Below, piece by piece: positions 57,981 to 64,000 of a DNA stretch of 64,000 bases; the first letter of the stretch is position 1, and every line of letters begins with the position of its first letter. The stretch spans positions 1-64,000 of the forward strand of contig SVDY01000005.1 in NCBI GenBank assembly GCA_015057665.1, read 5' to 3'. A model generated the notes under the pieces. The model did no database searches and was not told the origin of the DNA. It worked only from the letters and a program-made list of their open reading frames with translations. The position numbers and the translations under genes were made by a program. This stretch comes from Lachnospiraceae bacterium. Its GTDB lineage: Bacteria; Bacillota; Clostridia; Lachnospirales; Lachnospiraceae.

Positions 57981-58044
57981 TACATGAGCAATTACTGTAA
58001 TAACAAGAAGCAGAATAGAAATCAGGAAAGTGAGGATTACATAT

Positions 58045-59517
58045 ATGGAAACAGCCAGTCTTTACAAAGATATTCAGGGACGTACCGGCGGAGATATCTA
58101 TCTTGGAGTGGTAGGGCCCGTACGCACAGGAAAATCAACCTTTATCAAACATTTTATGGAACTTCTTGTTCTTCCGGGAATGGAACCTTCTCCCCTTCGT
58201 GACCGTGCAAAAGATGAACTGCCTCAATCTTCAGGTGGAAAAACCATCATGACAACAGAACCAAAATTTATTCCCCAGGAAGCTGCAAAAGTTCAGATAG
58301 ATGAGGAAATCACTCTTAACATCCGTCTCATTGACTGCGTCGGTTATATGGTGGAGGGAGCCTCCGGACATATGGAAAACAGTCAGGAACGGCTTGTAAA
58401 AACCCCTTGGTATGACTATGAAATACCTTTTACAAAAGCGGCAGAAATCGGTACCCGAAAAGTCATTACGGAACATTCCACTGTGGGCATTGTAATCACA
58501 TCCGATGGTTCCTTTGGGGATCTGACTCGGGCTGCATACGAGGCTGCTGAAGAGAGAACCATAAAGGAATTGAAACAGCTTCATAAACCTTTTATCCTTC
58601 TTTTAAATTCGCAATATCCACACAGCCAGGATGCAAAACAGCTTGCCGAAAAGCTATCAACAGCTTATGACTGTAACGTTCTTCCAATCAGCTGTGAACA
58701 GCTCCGGAAAGAAGACATTTATCGTATTATGAAAAGTATTCTTCTGGAATTCCCCGTTACTGCCCTCAACTTCTATCTTCCCAAATGGGTAGAATCTTTA
58801 TCAGTGGATCATTGGCTTAAATCAAGCCTGTTAGAAACAATACAGTCTTCATTTTCATCTATTATAAAAATGAAAGATCTCTATGGAATGGCTTTCCCAG
58901 AAAATGAATATGTAGAGTCATTAAAAATCGATTGCATTGATCTTTCTACTGGAAAAGTAAATATCTCCGTTCACTTTGACGATTCCTATTACTACAGGAT
59001 TATCAGTGATATGATAGAGATTCCAATTTCCAATGAATATGAATTTATGGATACGGTACGTGAACTTGCCAGCAAAAAAAGAGAATACGAAGAAGCTGCC
59101 GCTGCCCTCAATCAGGCACGACAGGCGGGCTACGGCATTATGAAACCGACCCGTTCTGATGTAACTTTAAAAGAGCCAGTCATCATCCGTCATGGTGGAA
59201 AATTCGGTGTGAAAATTCATGCCAGTGCCCCTTCTATTCATCTAATCAAAGCAAATATCTCTACGGAAATTGCTCCAATCGTAGGAACGGAAGATCAGGC
59301 AAAGGATCTGATCAACTACATTAAAGAAGAAGCCTCAAACGGTGAAGATTCCATCTGGAATGTAAACATTTTCGGTAAAACTATGGAACAGATGATTGCA
59401 GACGGCATTCAGGAGAAAGCTTCAAAGATACATAAGGAAAGTCAGTTAAAACTTCAGAACACTATGGAGAAAATTGTAAATGAAGGCAATGGAGGAATGG
59501 TCTGCATCATAATCTAA
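58045..59517 (+). CDS. spoIVA: stage IV sporulation protein A (SpoIVA), spore coat ATPase
   Basis: 490 residues (Bacillus 492). ATP-driven polymer that forms the base layer of the spore coat. Walker A GPVRTGKST at residues 24-32, preceded by DIQGRTGGDIYLGVV; a switch-like DCVGYMVEGASGH motif and a C-terminal targeting region ending GMVCIII. The start ATG has AGG at a suitable distance; a form five codons longer at GTG is less supported. Single gene, with a terminator shared with the convergent carboxypeptidase gene. Confidence 0.97.
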   Translation: METASLYKDIQGRTGGDIYLGVVGPVRTGKSTFIKHFMELLVLPGMEPSPLRDRAKDELPQSSGGKTIMTTEPKFIPQEAAKVQIDEEITLNIRLIDCVGYMVEGASGHMENSQERLVKTPWYDYEIPFTKAAEIGTRKVITEHSTVGIVITSDGSFGDLTRAAYEAAEERTIKELKQLHKPFILLLNSQYPHSQDAKQLAEKLSTAYDCNVLPISCEQLRKEDIYRIMKSILLEFPVTALNFYLPKWVESLSVDHWLKSSLLETIQSSFSSIIKMKDLYGMAFPENEYVESLKIDCIDLSTGKVNISVHFDDSYYYRIISDMIEIPISNEYEFMDTVRELASKKREYEEAAAALNQARQAGYGIMKPTRSDVTLKEPVIIRHGGKFGVKIHASAPSIHLIKANISTEIAPIVGTEDQAKDLINYIKEEASNGEDSIWNVNIFGKTMEQMIADGIQEKASKIHKESQLKLQNTMEKIVNEGNGGMVCIII

Positions 59518-59552: not shown

Positions 59553-61058
59553 TTATAATTCATATAATGCAGAATATTTTTTAATAAGGTATTCCACGTA
59601 ATAATCCGGGTTGAAAGCTTCTCCCGTTGTCTCTAAAAGAAGTTCCTGCGTATTCTTAGATTCACCAAATCGATGAATGTGTTCTTTCAGATATTCCTGA
59701 ATCGGTTTTAAATTTCCCTCTTCCAGATAGGATTCCAGAGGCATCTCTTTCTCCATGTAATGATAAAGCTGTGCTGCGATGGCACTTCCTAATGCATAAG
59801 ATGGGAAGTAACCGATCATTCCGCCTGACCAGTGCATATCCTGAAGTATTCCTTCTGAATCAGTTGGAGGTACAACTCCTAAGTACTCTTCATATTTCTG
59901 ATTCCAGATCTTTGGTAATTCCATTACATCCACATCGTTTTCAAAAATCATCTTTTCCATCTCGTAACGAATCATGATGTGGAACGGATACGTCAGCTCA
60001 TCTGCTGCTGTACGGATGAGACCAGGTTCGGAGTAGTTAATGGCTCCATAGAACTCATCAAGAGAAACATCTCCAAGCTGTTCCGGGAAAAACGCCTGAA
60101 TCTTACTATAGAGATTCTTCCAGAAAGCTTTACTTCTTCCGAAATTATTCTCGTATAGTCTGGACTGGGATTCATGCATACTCATGCCTGCTCCTCCTCC
60201 GATTGGAGTAAGAGTGATTTCATCATCGATATCCTGCTCATAAAGTGCATGTCCAGTCTCATGTATCACGCAGAACAGAGCATATTCCAGTCCATTTTCA
60301 CGATAGAAACTGGTCAGTCTTACATCATGATTGTGAAGATTCGTCGTGAATGGGTGCATGCTTTCTGCAATCACACCCCGGTCCATATCAAAACCTACAT
60401 ATTCGGAAAGAAAACGGGCCATTTTTTTCTGTGTATCAATGTCATATGATCTATGGAGGCAGTCTCTTGAGATAAATCCTTTCTTTTCACGAATTTTCTG
60501 TACAAGAGGCACCAGTTCTGTGCGGAGCTTTCCAAAAAAGCCATCTAAGATCTCTGTTGTAAATCCTTCCGCAAAATCTTCCAGCTGCACATCATATAAA
60601 GGCTGGCCTTCTTTCTGTTTGTAGGAGGCAAATTTCTTCGTATAAGCAATAATATCCTTTAAGACAGGAGCAAAGGCTGCAAAATCATTATTTGTCTTTG
60701 CATATTCCCATGCAGACTTGGATTTTGCAAGGAGAAGCTGGTATTCCTGATATTCCTGTGGCGGAATCAGTTCCAGATCCTCGAAATTCTTCTTTACATT
60801 CTTTACAATGGCTTTCTCATAGGCAGTAAGTTCTGCCTGCTCTTTTTCTGTGGAAAGGGCCCAAAGTAAATCTTTTACTTCCTTGTTGATCAATGCTTTA
60901 TATCTCTCGCCGGATAATATGGCTACTGCCTTAGATGTATTGGCAAGTGCTTTCTTAGGTGCTAATGTACTGTTATCCCAGCTTAATAAAACAAGGGCTG
61001 TACGATAGGCATAGGCTTTATCCAGATGCGGCTTTAACTGTTCAAATAACTGACTCAT
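59553..61058 (-). CDS. M32-family metallo-carboxypeptidase
   Basis: 501 residues, as in Thermus/Pyrococcus carboxypeptidase Taq. Zinc motif HETGH at 266-270 with the third ligand in HESQSRLYENNFG around 298; the family DxRxT-like pattern appears as HDVRLTS near 244-250. Cytoplasmic, no signal peptide; it trims C-terminal residues from peptides. Downstream gene of the MATE exporter in the same direction. Confidence 0.95.
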   Translation of the reverse strand: MSQLFEQLKPHLDKAYAYRTALVLLSWDNSTLAPKKALANTSKAVAILSGERYKALINKEVKDLLWALSTEKEQAELTAYEKAIVKNVKKNFEDLELIPPQEYQEYQLLLAKSKSAWEYAKTNNDFAAFAPVLKDIIAYTKKFASYKQKEGQPLYDVQLEDFAEGFTTEILDGFFGKLRTELVPLVQKIREKKGFISRDCLHRSYDIDTQKKMARFLSEYVGFDMDRGVIAESMHPFTTNLHNHDVRLTSFYRENGLEYALFCVIHETGHALYEQDIDDEITLTPIGGGAGMSMHESQSRLYENNFGRSKAFWKNLYSKIQAFFPEQLGDVSLDEFYGAINYSEPGLIRTAADELTYPFHIMIRYEMEKMIFENDVDVMELPKIWNQKYEEYLGVVPPTDSEGILQDMHWSGGMIGYFPSYALGSAIAAQLYHYMEKEMPLESYLEEGNLKPIQEYLKEHIHRFGESKNTQELLLETTGEAFNPDYYVEYLIKKYSALYEL

Positions 61059-61074
61059 AATTACTTATCTCCTT

Positions 61075-62460
61075 TTATTTTTTTAATACTGCTTTTTCAC
61101 GCCATTTTCCTCTTCGATAGAAAATAACCGTAAGGGCTGCCCCGATTAACCAGGATGTTACAAGGGAATAGAACATACACTTTGGATCTCCAAGAGGATT
61201 TTCCGGAGTTTTGGATAAGTGTACGAATAAATAAGCTAAAGGTACTCGCAGAACTACGGTCTGCACAATAGAAATCCACATAGGTGTCATGGTATCTCCT
61301 GCTCCGCGCATAATACCGGAAAGACACTGGGTAACACCAACTGCAATATAACCTACTGCAAGGATCCGAAGCATGGTCATACCTACATTTACAAGTTCGA
61401 CAGTGTCTGTGAAAAATCCCATAAGATATTTGCCGAAGAATAAAATAACAAGAGTAATACAGGTAGAAGTGATGATACCAATCATTGTTCCCTGCTTTGC
61501 TCCCTCGGATACTCGTTTGTGATCTCCTGCTCCAATATTCTGTCCCGCATAGGTTGTCATAGCCGTTCCAAAGGACATGTTCGGAAGCATGGCAAATCCG
61601 TCTACACGCATGATTACTACGTTTGCAGCAATAAATAATTCTCCGAAAGTATTGGTAAGGGACTGGGATAAGAGCATGGACATGGAAAGGATTCCCTGTG
61701 TAATACCGGATGGAAGTCCGAGACGGATAACATTATCATAGATACCGCTTTGAAGCTTAAAGTATTTTACGCCAAAATCAAACATGTCAGACATTTTCAT
61801 CAGTTTACGGAAACATAATATTGCTGATACTCCCTGGGCAATGGCTGTCGCATAAGCAACACCTGAAACACCCATATTTAATTTGGCAACAAAGATAAGA
61901 TCCAGTACAATATTTAAAAAGCTGGCAACCATAAGATAGAACAGAGCTGAGACAGCATCTCCAAGACCTCTCAAAATACCACACAGAATATTATAATATG
62001 CAAGACCTGCAATGCCGATAAATAAAATCTGAAGATAGGAAGTACACCAGTCAATAATACTGGACGGAGTACCGAGAAGTTCCAGAAGCGGTCTTGCTCC
62101 CAATGTTGCTGCAATCATAATAAAGATAGACGCAATTCCCGTCAAAGTAATACAGTTACCGATTGTGACGGACAATTCTTCTCTCTTTCTCGCTCCATAA
62201 AACTGAGATACCATAATAGTAGCCCCTGTACTGATACCGACAAACAGAACAATTAACAAGTTAAAAATCGGTGTCGCACTTCCTACTGCGGCAAGAGCAT
62301 TATCTCCTACATATTTACCAACTACCACACTGTCTACAGTGTTATAAAGCTGCTGTGCCAGGTTCCCAAGCAGCATTGGAAAGGTAAAGATCAAAATCTT
62401 CTCCCATGGTCTTCCCACTGTCATATCGACAGCAGAAAAAAGTTTTCGAAACTTTTCCAT
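61075..62460 (-). CDS. MATE-family multidrug/metabolite exporter
   Basis: 461 residues with 12 predicted membrane segments in two halves (QLYNTVDSVVVGKYVG in the first, AGQNIGAGDHKRVSEG in the second). The N-terminus (DMTVGRPWEKILIFTFPMLLGNLAQQ) is typical of Clostridial MATE proteins. It exports cationic compounds by Na+ or H+ antiport; substrate unknown. It is followed directly by the carboxypeptidase gene. Confidence 0.93.
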   Translation of the reverse strand: MEKFRKLFSAVDMTVGRPWEKILIFTFPMLLGNLAQQLYNTVDSVVVGKYVGDNALAAVGSATPIFNLLIVLFVGISTGATIMVSQFYGARKREELSVTIGNCITLTGIASIFIMIAATLGARPLLELLGTPSSIIDWCTSYLQILFIGIAGLAYYNILCGILRGLGDAVSALFYLMVASFLNIVLDLIFVAKLNMGVSGVAYATAIAQGVSAILCFRKLMKMSDMFDFGVKYFKLQSGIYDNVIRLGLPSGITQGILSMSMLLSQSLTNTFGELFIAANVVIMRVDGFAMLPNMSFGTAMTTYAGQNIGAGDHKRVSEGAKQGTMIGIITSTCITLVILFFGKYLMGFFTDTVELVNVGMTMLRILAVGYIAVGVTQCLSGIMRGAGDTMTPMWISIVQTVVLRVPLAYLFVHLSKTPENPLGDPKCMFYSLVTSWLIGAALTVIFYRRGKWREKAVLKK

Positions 62461-62532: not shown

Positions 62533-62562
62533 AATCCGAAAAGTTTTTCTGCTTTTCGGATT
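62533..62562 (-). terminator. hairpin after the Ntn-hydrolase-like gene
   Basis: AATCCGAAAAG and CTTTTCGGATT pair perfectly over 11 bp, 11 bases past the gene's stop. The following T-run is short, so termination may be partial. Confidence 0.65.
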
Positions 62563-62572
62563 GTTTAAGTTA

Positions 62573-63190
62573 TTATGCTTCTATATATTCAAATAAAATG
62601 TTATTATTTACTGTCTTGTCATTCCGGGATCCATTGAGAATGGTCTGTTTAAACACTTTCTCCACCTCGTTCTGCGTGATTGCATGAGTGCTTTCAAAGA
62701 GCTGCTTGCATACTTTCTTGTGATCGTAGTTGCTTCCATAAAGAGCCGACCAGCGGATTCCAAAGTCATTTAAAAGATTTTTCTGAATACTTAAGGATCC
62801 ATTATAATTATATACGTGCATGAACAATGGATTTCTCACAAGATCCCTGGACTGCGTGTGGAGCATCTTCCCGCAGACAATAATGCTGAAAAAACATTTC
62901 TCTCCCGTCTTAGCCAGCTCTTCCTCTGCCATCCTTGCACGATGTTCAATGGCTTCTGACATATTTACATTATCAAACATGGATTCTTCTTTAATCCCGC
63001 GTTCCAAAACAGGCTCAAGAATTGCTTTACAATATGGAATCTTTCCTGCAAATGCAACAATAAAATCTTCATTTATTTTAAAAACCTTACGGTAATTCTC
63101 ACTTAAGACCTGTCCCTGTTTGTCAAGAACACGCTGATCCCCGGCTACTACAATAAAGTTCTTATTCCCACCGGCTAATACTAAACTCAT
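62573..63190 (-). CDS. proteasome-fold Ntn-hydrolase-like protein, uncharacterised
   Basis: 205 residues from an ATG preceded by AGGAGG. After loss of Met the chain starts with Ser (S-L-V-L-A-G-G), and the order of residues follows proteasome beta subunits: Ser1 where the Thr1 nucleophile stands, Asp17 in VVAGDQR, Lys34 in NYRKVFKI (Lys33 in the archaeal subunit, one residue offset) and the VAFAGK turn after it. It is not HslV, which begins TT, and no hslU/clpY gene or Pup genes are near. The C-terminal half has no known match. Activity is not proven. Its promoter faces that of the encapsulin operon. Confidence 0.75.
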   Translation of the reverse strand: MSLVLAGGNKNFIVVAGDQRVLDKQGQVLSENYRKVFKINEDFIVAFAGKIPYCKAILEPVLERGIKEESMFDNVNMSEAIEHRARMAEEELAKTGEKCFFSIIVCGKMLHTQSRDLVRNPLFMHVYNYNGSLSIQKNLLNDFGIRWSALYGSNYDHKKVCKQLFESTHAITQNEVEKVFKQTILNGSRNDKTVNNNILFEYIEA

Positions 63191-63376
63191 ATGCTGATCC
63201 TCCTGTCTGAAACCGTTCCAGCCACACTTTATCTTTCGTTCCAATTTACATGGTACAAATTACTCTATGTGCATTTTATCACAATTTTATTTATGTGAAA
63301 ATATGTTTTTTTGTAAACTATGATAAATAAAATAGAATTTTTTTCTCCTGGCTCTTCTTATTAATGCTACTTTAAT

Positions 63377-63405
63377 TTGACTTGAAATGCAGATTCTGTT
63401 AAGAT
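63377..63405 (+). promoter_or_regulatory. promoter of the encapsulin operon
   Basis: TTGACT, 17 bases, TAAGAT, about 36 bases upstream of the ferritin start. The 250-base gap between the two divergent genes holds this and A/T-rich sequence; I see no clear Fur- or PerR-type palindrome. Confidence 0.55.
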
Positions 63406-63440
63406 AAACATAACTTAAAGAATAAAAGGAGGATATAATT

Positions 63441-63803
63441 ATGCCTAGTTTTCCAAATCCTTTTCCAGGAAATGTAGAAAGAAAAATGTCAAATGCGGAA
63501 CTGATGCAGGCTCTTCGTCACGACATCGCAGGTGAGCTGGAAGCGATTTTCCTTTATGATGCCCACTATCATGCAACAGATGACCCTGTAGCTAAAGCTA
63601 TTTTGGCAGACATTAGAGATGAAGAAAAAGTACACGTTGGAGAATTAATGACTCTTATGCGTCATCTTGACCCAAAAGAAACAGCATTCTTCTTAGAAGG
63701 CGAGGAAGAAGTTCATGAAATGTTAGAAGAACTGGGAATCGTGAAAAAAGAAGGAGAAATTGCTCCGGCAGCAGGCCCAACAGTAGGAAGCCTGGTAGAA
63801 TAG
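63441..63803 (+). CDS. encapsulated ferritin-like protein (EncFtn)
   Basis: 120 residues. Iron-storage cargo of encapsulin shells. Ferroxidase residues E32, E62 and H65 sit in GELEAIFLYDAH and RDEEKVH, the same numbers as I recall for Rhodospirillum EncFtn; E34 and Y39 are conserved. The last eight residues PTVGSLVE form the cargo-loading peptide (consensus around TVGSL) that docks inside the shell. Start behind AAAGGAGG; the shell gene follows 18 bases after the stop. Confidence 0.95.
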   Translation: MPSFPNPFPGNVERKMSNAELMQALRHDIAGELEAIFLYDAHYHATDDPVAKAILADIRDEEKVHVGELMTLMRHLDPKETAFFLEGEEEVHEMLEELGIVKKEGEIAPAAGPTVGSLVE

Positions 63804-63821
63804 TGTAAAGGAGGACTGACC

Positions 63822-64000
63822 ATGGATTATTTAGGAAGAAATGATGCACCAATCTCCGCTGAATTATGGCAGCAGATTGATGAAACAGTAATTAATAACG
63901 CAAAACAGCATATGGTTTGCCGCCGTTTCTTAAATATCTACGGACCTTTAGGAGCTGGCACATCTTATGTTGCAGTTGATTCAGCAGCAAAAGACGAATC
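63822..64000 (+). CDS. encapsulin shell protein, partial (3' end outside window)
   Basis: 59 residues visible, starting MDYLGRNDAPISAELWQQID at an ATG behind AAAGGAGG. The pattern (W..ID.......K......R.F..I.GP.G) matches the N-terminus of family 1 encapsulins (HK97-fold, linocin M18 type). The upstream cargo with a fitting C-terminal tag confirms it. The gene is cut by the window edge. Confidence 0.93.
   Translation, partial: MDYLGRNDAPISAELWQQIDETVINNAKQHMVCRRFLNIYGPLGAGTSYVAVDSAAKDE

Follow-up and report, generated by a model that had tools for sequence, protein, structure and literature searches.

The window, that is, the whole stretch of 64,000 nucleotides that was analysed, carries near one end a gene for a proteasome-like Ntn-hydrolase (the Ntn gene and Ntn protein in the following). 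The gene, its functional codons and its neighbours are arranged as follows, with residues numbered in the translation unless given as mature.

58030–59517, plus strand: spoIVA (Pfam), in a conserved convergent arrangement with the Ntn gene and directly adjacent to it in both sister species
59553–61058, minus strand: M32 carboxypeptidase gene (Pfam), between spoIVA and the Ntn gene in this species only, absent at this site in the sisters
61075–62460, minus strand: MATE transporter gene (Pfam), likewise between spoIVA and the Ntn gene in this species only and absent at this site in the sisters
62533–62562, no strand assigned: 12-bp hairpin directly 3' of the Ntn stop codon, with a T-run scored on the plus strand only
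62573–63190, minus strand: Ntn-hydrolase gene of the proteasome-like family (PF00227), 205 amino acids plus stop
62828–62866, minus strand: genus-specific loop, residues 109–121 (13 residues), joining two strands of the second sheet, pLDDT about 65
63044–63046, minus strand: codon for Gly49 in FAGK, counterpart of the oxyanion-hole Gly47, invariant in 26/26 sequences
63086–63088, minus strand: codon for Lys35 (mature Lys34, in YRKVFK), invariant in 26/26 sequences including 16 HslV, spaced as in clostridial HslV
63137–63139, minus strand: codon for Asp18 (mature Asp17, in VAGDQR), Asp or Glu in all relatives and nearly invariant when HslV is added
63185–63187, minus strand: codon for Ser2 (predicted nucleophile Ser1 once Met is removed), invariant in relatives; in the model, residue 2 aligns with residue 1 of many 20S beta chains
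63199–63204, minus strand: Shine-Dalgarno sequence AGGAGG, 8 nt upstream of the ATG of the Ntn gene
63441–64000, plus strand: divergent encapsulin operon, comprising an EncFtn-like cargo gene (63441–63803) and a shell gene that begins at 63823 and runs past the window; the operon extends to L029:4638

The translation of the Ntn gene starts MSLVLAGGNKNFIVVAGDQRV...ENYRKVFKINEDFIVAFAGK. Its ATG start is well supported, because it is preceded by a strong Shine-Dalgarno sequence, AGGAGG also lies a few bases 5' of the matching ATG in both sister species, and the stop-to-stop frame of the sister orthologue L003 comprises 207 codons against an ORF of 205 amino acids, so that a longer start is impossible there. 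Serine follows immediately after the start methionine, without a propeptide. Removal of methionine by methionine aminopeptidase is normal when serine comes next, and with serine at residue 2 it would therefore leave Ser1 at the N-terminus. The layout given in the original prediction, with Ser1, Asp17 and Lys34 followed by a FAGK turn, was found in this 205-residue translation. The hairpin after the stop codon may mark the end of a single-gene transcript.

A proteasome-type Ntn fold had also been proposed, and both profile and structure searches agreed with it. The protein matched PF00227 (Proteasome) in Pfam with E=1.4e-8 and 35.1 bits (cut-off 22.4); among the sister orthologues, L003 scored just above this cut-off and L002 below it, and the group is therefore highly divergent. 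An AlphaFold2 model built from the three orthologues only reached a pLDDT of 53 and was used for topology alone; when this HslV-free model was submitted to Foldseek, the top matches were all proteasome subunits. With 26 homologues, of which 16 were HslV, the pLDDT rose to 90.2 and the pTM to 0.88, a confidence that is partly borrowed from the 16 HslV rows of the alignment. Foldseek with the latter model agreed with a proteasome fold (E 5e-10), and VIA-align superposed it on 20S beta subunits with Z scores of up to 19.9 (187 residues at 3.1 Å), residue 2 falling on the catalytic Thr1 (residue 1) in many of the 20S beta chains. The model contains all expected strands as well as H1–H4, with helices H51-64 and H74-95 (= H2) and only five residues between strands E28-30 and E36-40, and it ends in a strand (198–204) with no helix beyond, the protein itself ending at residue 205. 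Neither the single protein nor a three-row profile (A1) gave a significant match to PDB sequences. On the basis of the models, the predicted fold is that of a proteasome beta subunit (Ntn alpha-beta-beta-alpha).

The Ntn gene is carried by all three genomes of its genus. When 387 genomes of the same family were searched with a broad profile, matches were obtained in 5 of 334 genera, one of them (L078) probably spurious. L009, L010, L020 and L078 were set aside, their profile matches being partial and weak, and the ORFs read in L009, L020 and L078 included nothing recognisably proteasome-like. In a PF00227 scan of 295 genomes of the order, no other protein matched, and tblastn and pattern scans of plasmids, phage records and viral contigs returned no relatives of the Ntn protein. 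PADLOC gave no match, and a defence system was discarded as a candidate. The description of the gene as stand-alone, with no unfoldase partner, holds genome-wide: HslU (TIGR00390) gave nothing above cut-off in this genome or in the two sister genomes (89–94% complete), and the PF00227 scan found no second such gene in this genome, hence no candidate alpha subunit.

The position of the protein relative to HslV was assessed by tree building and profile comparison. In the tree, HslV is split from all other sequences with a support of 100/97, subject to long-branch caution, whereas the non-HslV side has long branches, is unresolved internally and so gives no phage-to-host direction. Comparison with hhalign gave 95% for L008, 93% over 184 columns for L007 and 90% for L012, against 47% for HslV. 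A profile of the non-HslV sequences (A3), in which the Ntn protein is included and several lineages are mixed, fitted archaeal beta (2.7e-6) and alpha chains (8e-5) better than HslV (5.6e-4). These results weigh on the suggestion that the protein is a divergent HslV (ClpQ) whose HslU was lost or that is served by a different AAA+ unfoldase, for instance ClpX. Such an origin would account for the Asp17/Lys34 spacing and the FAG motif, both as in clostridial HslV, and AAA+ proteins of the ClpX type are present in the genome; it is nevertheless quite unlikely, given the grouping with non-HslV relatives across the 100/97 branch, the hhalign and profile results, the change from Thr to Ser, the additional 13-residue loop and the lack of hslU. 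The claim that the protein is neither HslV nor PrcB is upheld by the separate placement of HslV and the missing HslU on the one hand, and by the lack of a propeptide and of a second PF00227 gene on the other. The N-terminal domain of connectase was also matched by relatives (L008, E=0.0028; L003, E=0.055), and connectase sets a precedent for a proteasome-like ligase (PMC8665760), so a connectase-like ligase or site-specific transpeptidase that joins proteins through a Ser1 acyl-enzyme was considered. We regard this as very unlikely, since the matches are weak and lie under the Pfam cut-off and the model has H1–H2 but not the two-helix insertion, the opposite of connectase.

Conservation was evaluated at three depths. 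In the orthologues of the three species, Ser1, Asp/Glu17 and Lys34 are kept down to 55% identity. An alignment of nine sequences, consisting of the Ntn protein and relatives 17–55% identical to it, has only six invariant columns (Met1, Ser2, Arg20, Lys35, Gly49 and Gly107), and position 18 is occupied by Asp or Glu in 9/9 sequences; residues 2, 18 and 35, named beforehand as the positions to check, are thus all kept, with Asp or Glu at 18. In the alignment of 26 sequences including 16 HslV, Ser2 aligns with Thr1 of HslV. Among the three orthologues, pN was 0.22–0.29 and pS 0.74–0.81, the synonymous differences being saturated, and between-species identity amounted to 55–63% for the Ntn protein, 70% for spoIVA and 81% for rnhA. 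By these sequence comparisons the gene evolves faster than its neighbours, yet is under purifying selection. The loop at residues 109–121, which is missing from HslV, L007 and L008, contains four residues that are invariant in the genus (His111, Asp116, Asn120 and Pro121) and may influence specificity. Cysteines 54, 99, 106 and 161 are likewise invariant across the three orthologues.

Beyond the genus, the closest relatives are only 17–25% identical to the Ntn protein, and all non-HslV relatives collected, except L028, start with Met-Ser. Within Lachnospiraceae, the best two distant relatives of full length, L007 and L008, are both prophage-borne. The Ser1 protein L008 (L032:3033-3788) is flanked by a late-type phage transcription regulator and a small terminase subunit, with the genes for large terminase, portal and major head protein downstream, and L007 (L033:9120-9854) lies in a prophage close to genes for tail fibre, holin and endolysin. 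A further Ser1 protein of 190 amino acids (L077:1501-2073), located on a 3.4-kb contig, adjoins by eye a transposase-like gene and an XRE-type regulator. In the clostridial proteins L014, L016, L017, L036 and L041, a matching N-terminal domain is followed by a long C-terminal part that by eye is phage-tail-like, as in the description of FC4 (PMC8665760). L028:1488-2724 and L016:1501-2808 are tandem genes, each encoding a proteasome-fold domain fused to a tail-like C-terminal part; one product starts Met-Ser and the other MKKI-Ser, and the latter might have a short propeptide or be a partner without catalytic activity. The patchy distribution and the phage-borne relatives could be taken to mean that the gene is a decaying prophage remnant or encodes an inactive structural protein. 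This is extremely unlikely, however, because in three species whose proteins diverge by up to 45% the gene is intact, pN is far below pS, and both the catalytic residues and the start site have been retained.

In all three species the Ntn gene converges with spoIVA, and rnhA lies on the far side of spoIVA. On the divergent side the sister species carry a Fic gene, and no motif common to the upstream regions of the three orthologues was clear by eye. A gap of 250 bp between the Ntn gene and the encapsulin cargo gene had been pointed out, and it is present (63190 to 63441); a functional link across it is not supported, since encapsulin was not detected in either sister genome, both of which carry the Ntn gene. 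An encapsulin partnership of the Ntn protein was rejected on the same grounds, the encapsulin neighbour is judged incidental, and the presence of the operon here probably reflects a gain in this species or a loss in the sisters. The case for a sporulation role from adjacency to spoIVA is weak, because the genes are convergent and do not form an operon. The same adjacency bears on the proposal that the protein is not a general peptidase but a specific, phage-inherited maturation enzyme, acting for example on a spore-coat or structural protein. Its nearest relatives are encoded in the packaging and tail regions of phages, clostridial relatives carry tail-like domain fusions (cf. FC4, PMC8665760), and the gene has kept its place beside spoIVA; the window locus, however, contains no phage genes, and the convergent, non-operonic arrangement perhaps reflects mere inherited gene order. 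We consider a maturation enzyme unlikely.

The interpretation we favour, with moderate confidence, is a stand-alone, proteasome-like N-terminal-serine hydrolase that belongs to the non-HslV side together with phage-linked relatives from Firmicutes. Its predicted activity is, in the best reading of sequence and model, that of an unfoldase-independent N-terminal-serine peptidase. Briefly, methionine aminopeptidase would expose Ser1, no propeptide being involved; the amine of Ser1 and Lys34, positioned by Asp/Glu17, would then activate the serine hydroxyl, and mature Gly48 (translation residue 49) would form the oxyanion hole. Because HslU is missing, the substrates would most likely be peptides, unfolded stretches of protein or a single specific protein, handled without an unfoldase. 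The assembly would most likely be a small oligomer or a ring; in the proteasome, rings are built by H1–H4. As to its origin, a phage-borne gene probably entered one Lachnospiraceae genus and then became fixed beside spoIVA, so that the present gene is probably phage-derived. In a bolder version, which strikes us as quite improbable, the phage-derived Ser1 enzyme was domesticated in this one genus and took on a dedicated task, for instance the ligation or site-specific processing of a particular host protein, with loop 109–121 serving as specificity lid; if true, the proteasome fold would thereby gain a new activity.

Proteasome-like homologues of this kind have been surveyed by Fuchs, Alva and Lupas in 2021, who described 22 of them, five being Firmicute clusters (FC1–FC5), and predicted more (PMC8665760). 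For the Firmicute clusters, whose nucleophile is Thr1 or Ser1, neither function nor partners are known, and several group II members are similar to both alpha and beta subunits (PMC8665760). The family had originally been called uncharacterised, with no described function. It had already been recognised: because the 2021 survey contained Firmicute-specific clusters, the Ntn protein represents an uncharacterised branch within a known family and not a new kind of machine. Similarly, the serine nucleophile in place of threonine is present as predicted but not unusual, given that nearly all non-HslV relatives start Met-Ser, that CodWX is cited as an N-terminal-Ser proteasome-fold protease in the reference list of PMC5506225, and that Ser1 was allowed in the 2021 survey. 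What is specific here is the chromosomal fixation in a single genus combined with the mobile setting of the nearest relatives.

The Ntn protein resembles FC1–FC5 in its Firmicute origin, proteasome-like fold, Thr/Ser1-Asp17-Lys33 site and lack of a known partner or function (PMC8665760), but has in addition the genus-specific 13-residue loop, and it lacks the C-terminal phage-tail-like domain of FC4 (PMC8665760). With HslV/ClpQ it shares a compact subunit without C-terminal helix and the Asp17/Lys34 spacing of the clostridial forms, from which it differs by having neither HslU nor propeptide residues, by Ser for Thr, by the extra loop and by its place on another tree branch. The 20S beta subunits (PrcB, archaeal PsmB) are alike in fold (Z 19.9), residue-1 nucleophile, Asp17-x-Arg19, Lys and Gly47, whereas the Ntn protein has no alpha subunit or self-cleaved propeptide and is only about 12% identical to them. 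Connectase (MJ0548) is likewise proteasome-like, stand-alone and found in few taxa, but it is without H1–H2 and carries two inserted helices between S3 and S4, the reverse of the Ntn model. Anbu possesses a C-terminal helix H5 (coiled coil) that the Ntn model does not have. The phage-associated homologues PPH and AAH are similar in being proteasome-like proteins of phages or prophages (PMC8665760); PPH, however, has about 140 residues and no H2 (PMC8665760), compared with 205 residues and an H2 in the Ntn protein. Apart from HslV, Anbu, BPH and connectase, no proteasome-like homologue has a known function, and connectase exemplifies the unexpected activities that may be hidden there. As a small protein that stands alone without propeptide or partner, is under selection and has phage-borne relatives in its family, the Ntn protein provides a simple test case for the role of the Firmicute branch and for the conversion of a proteasome-fold gene from phage to host use.
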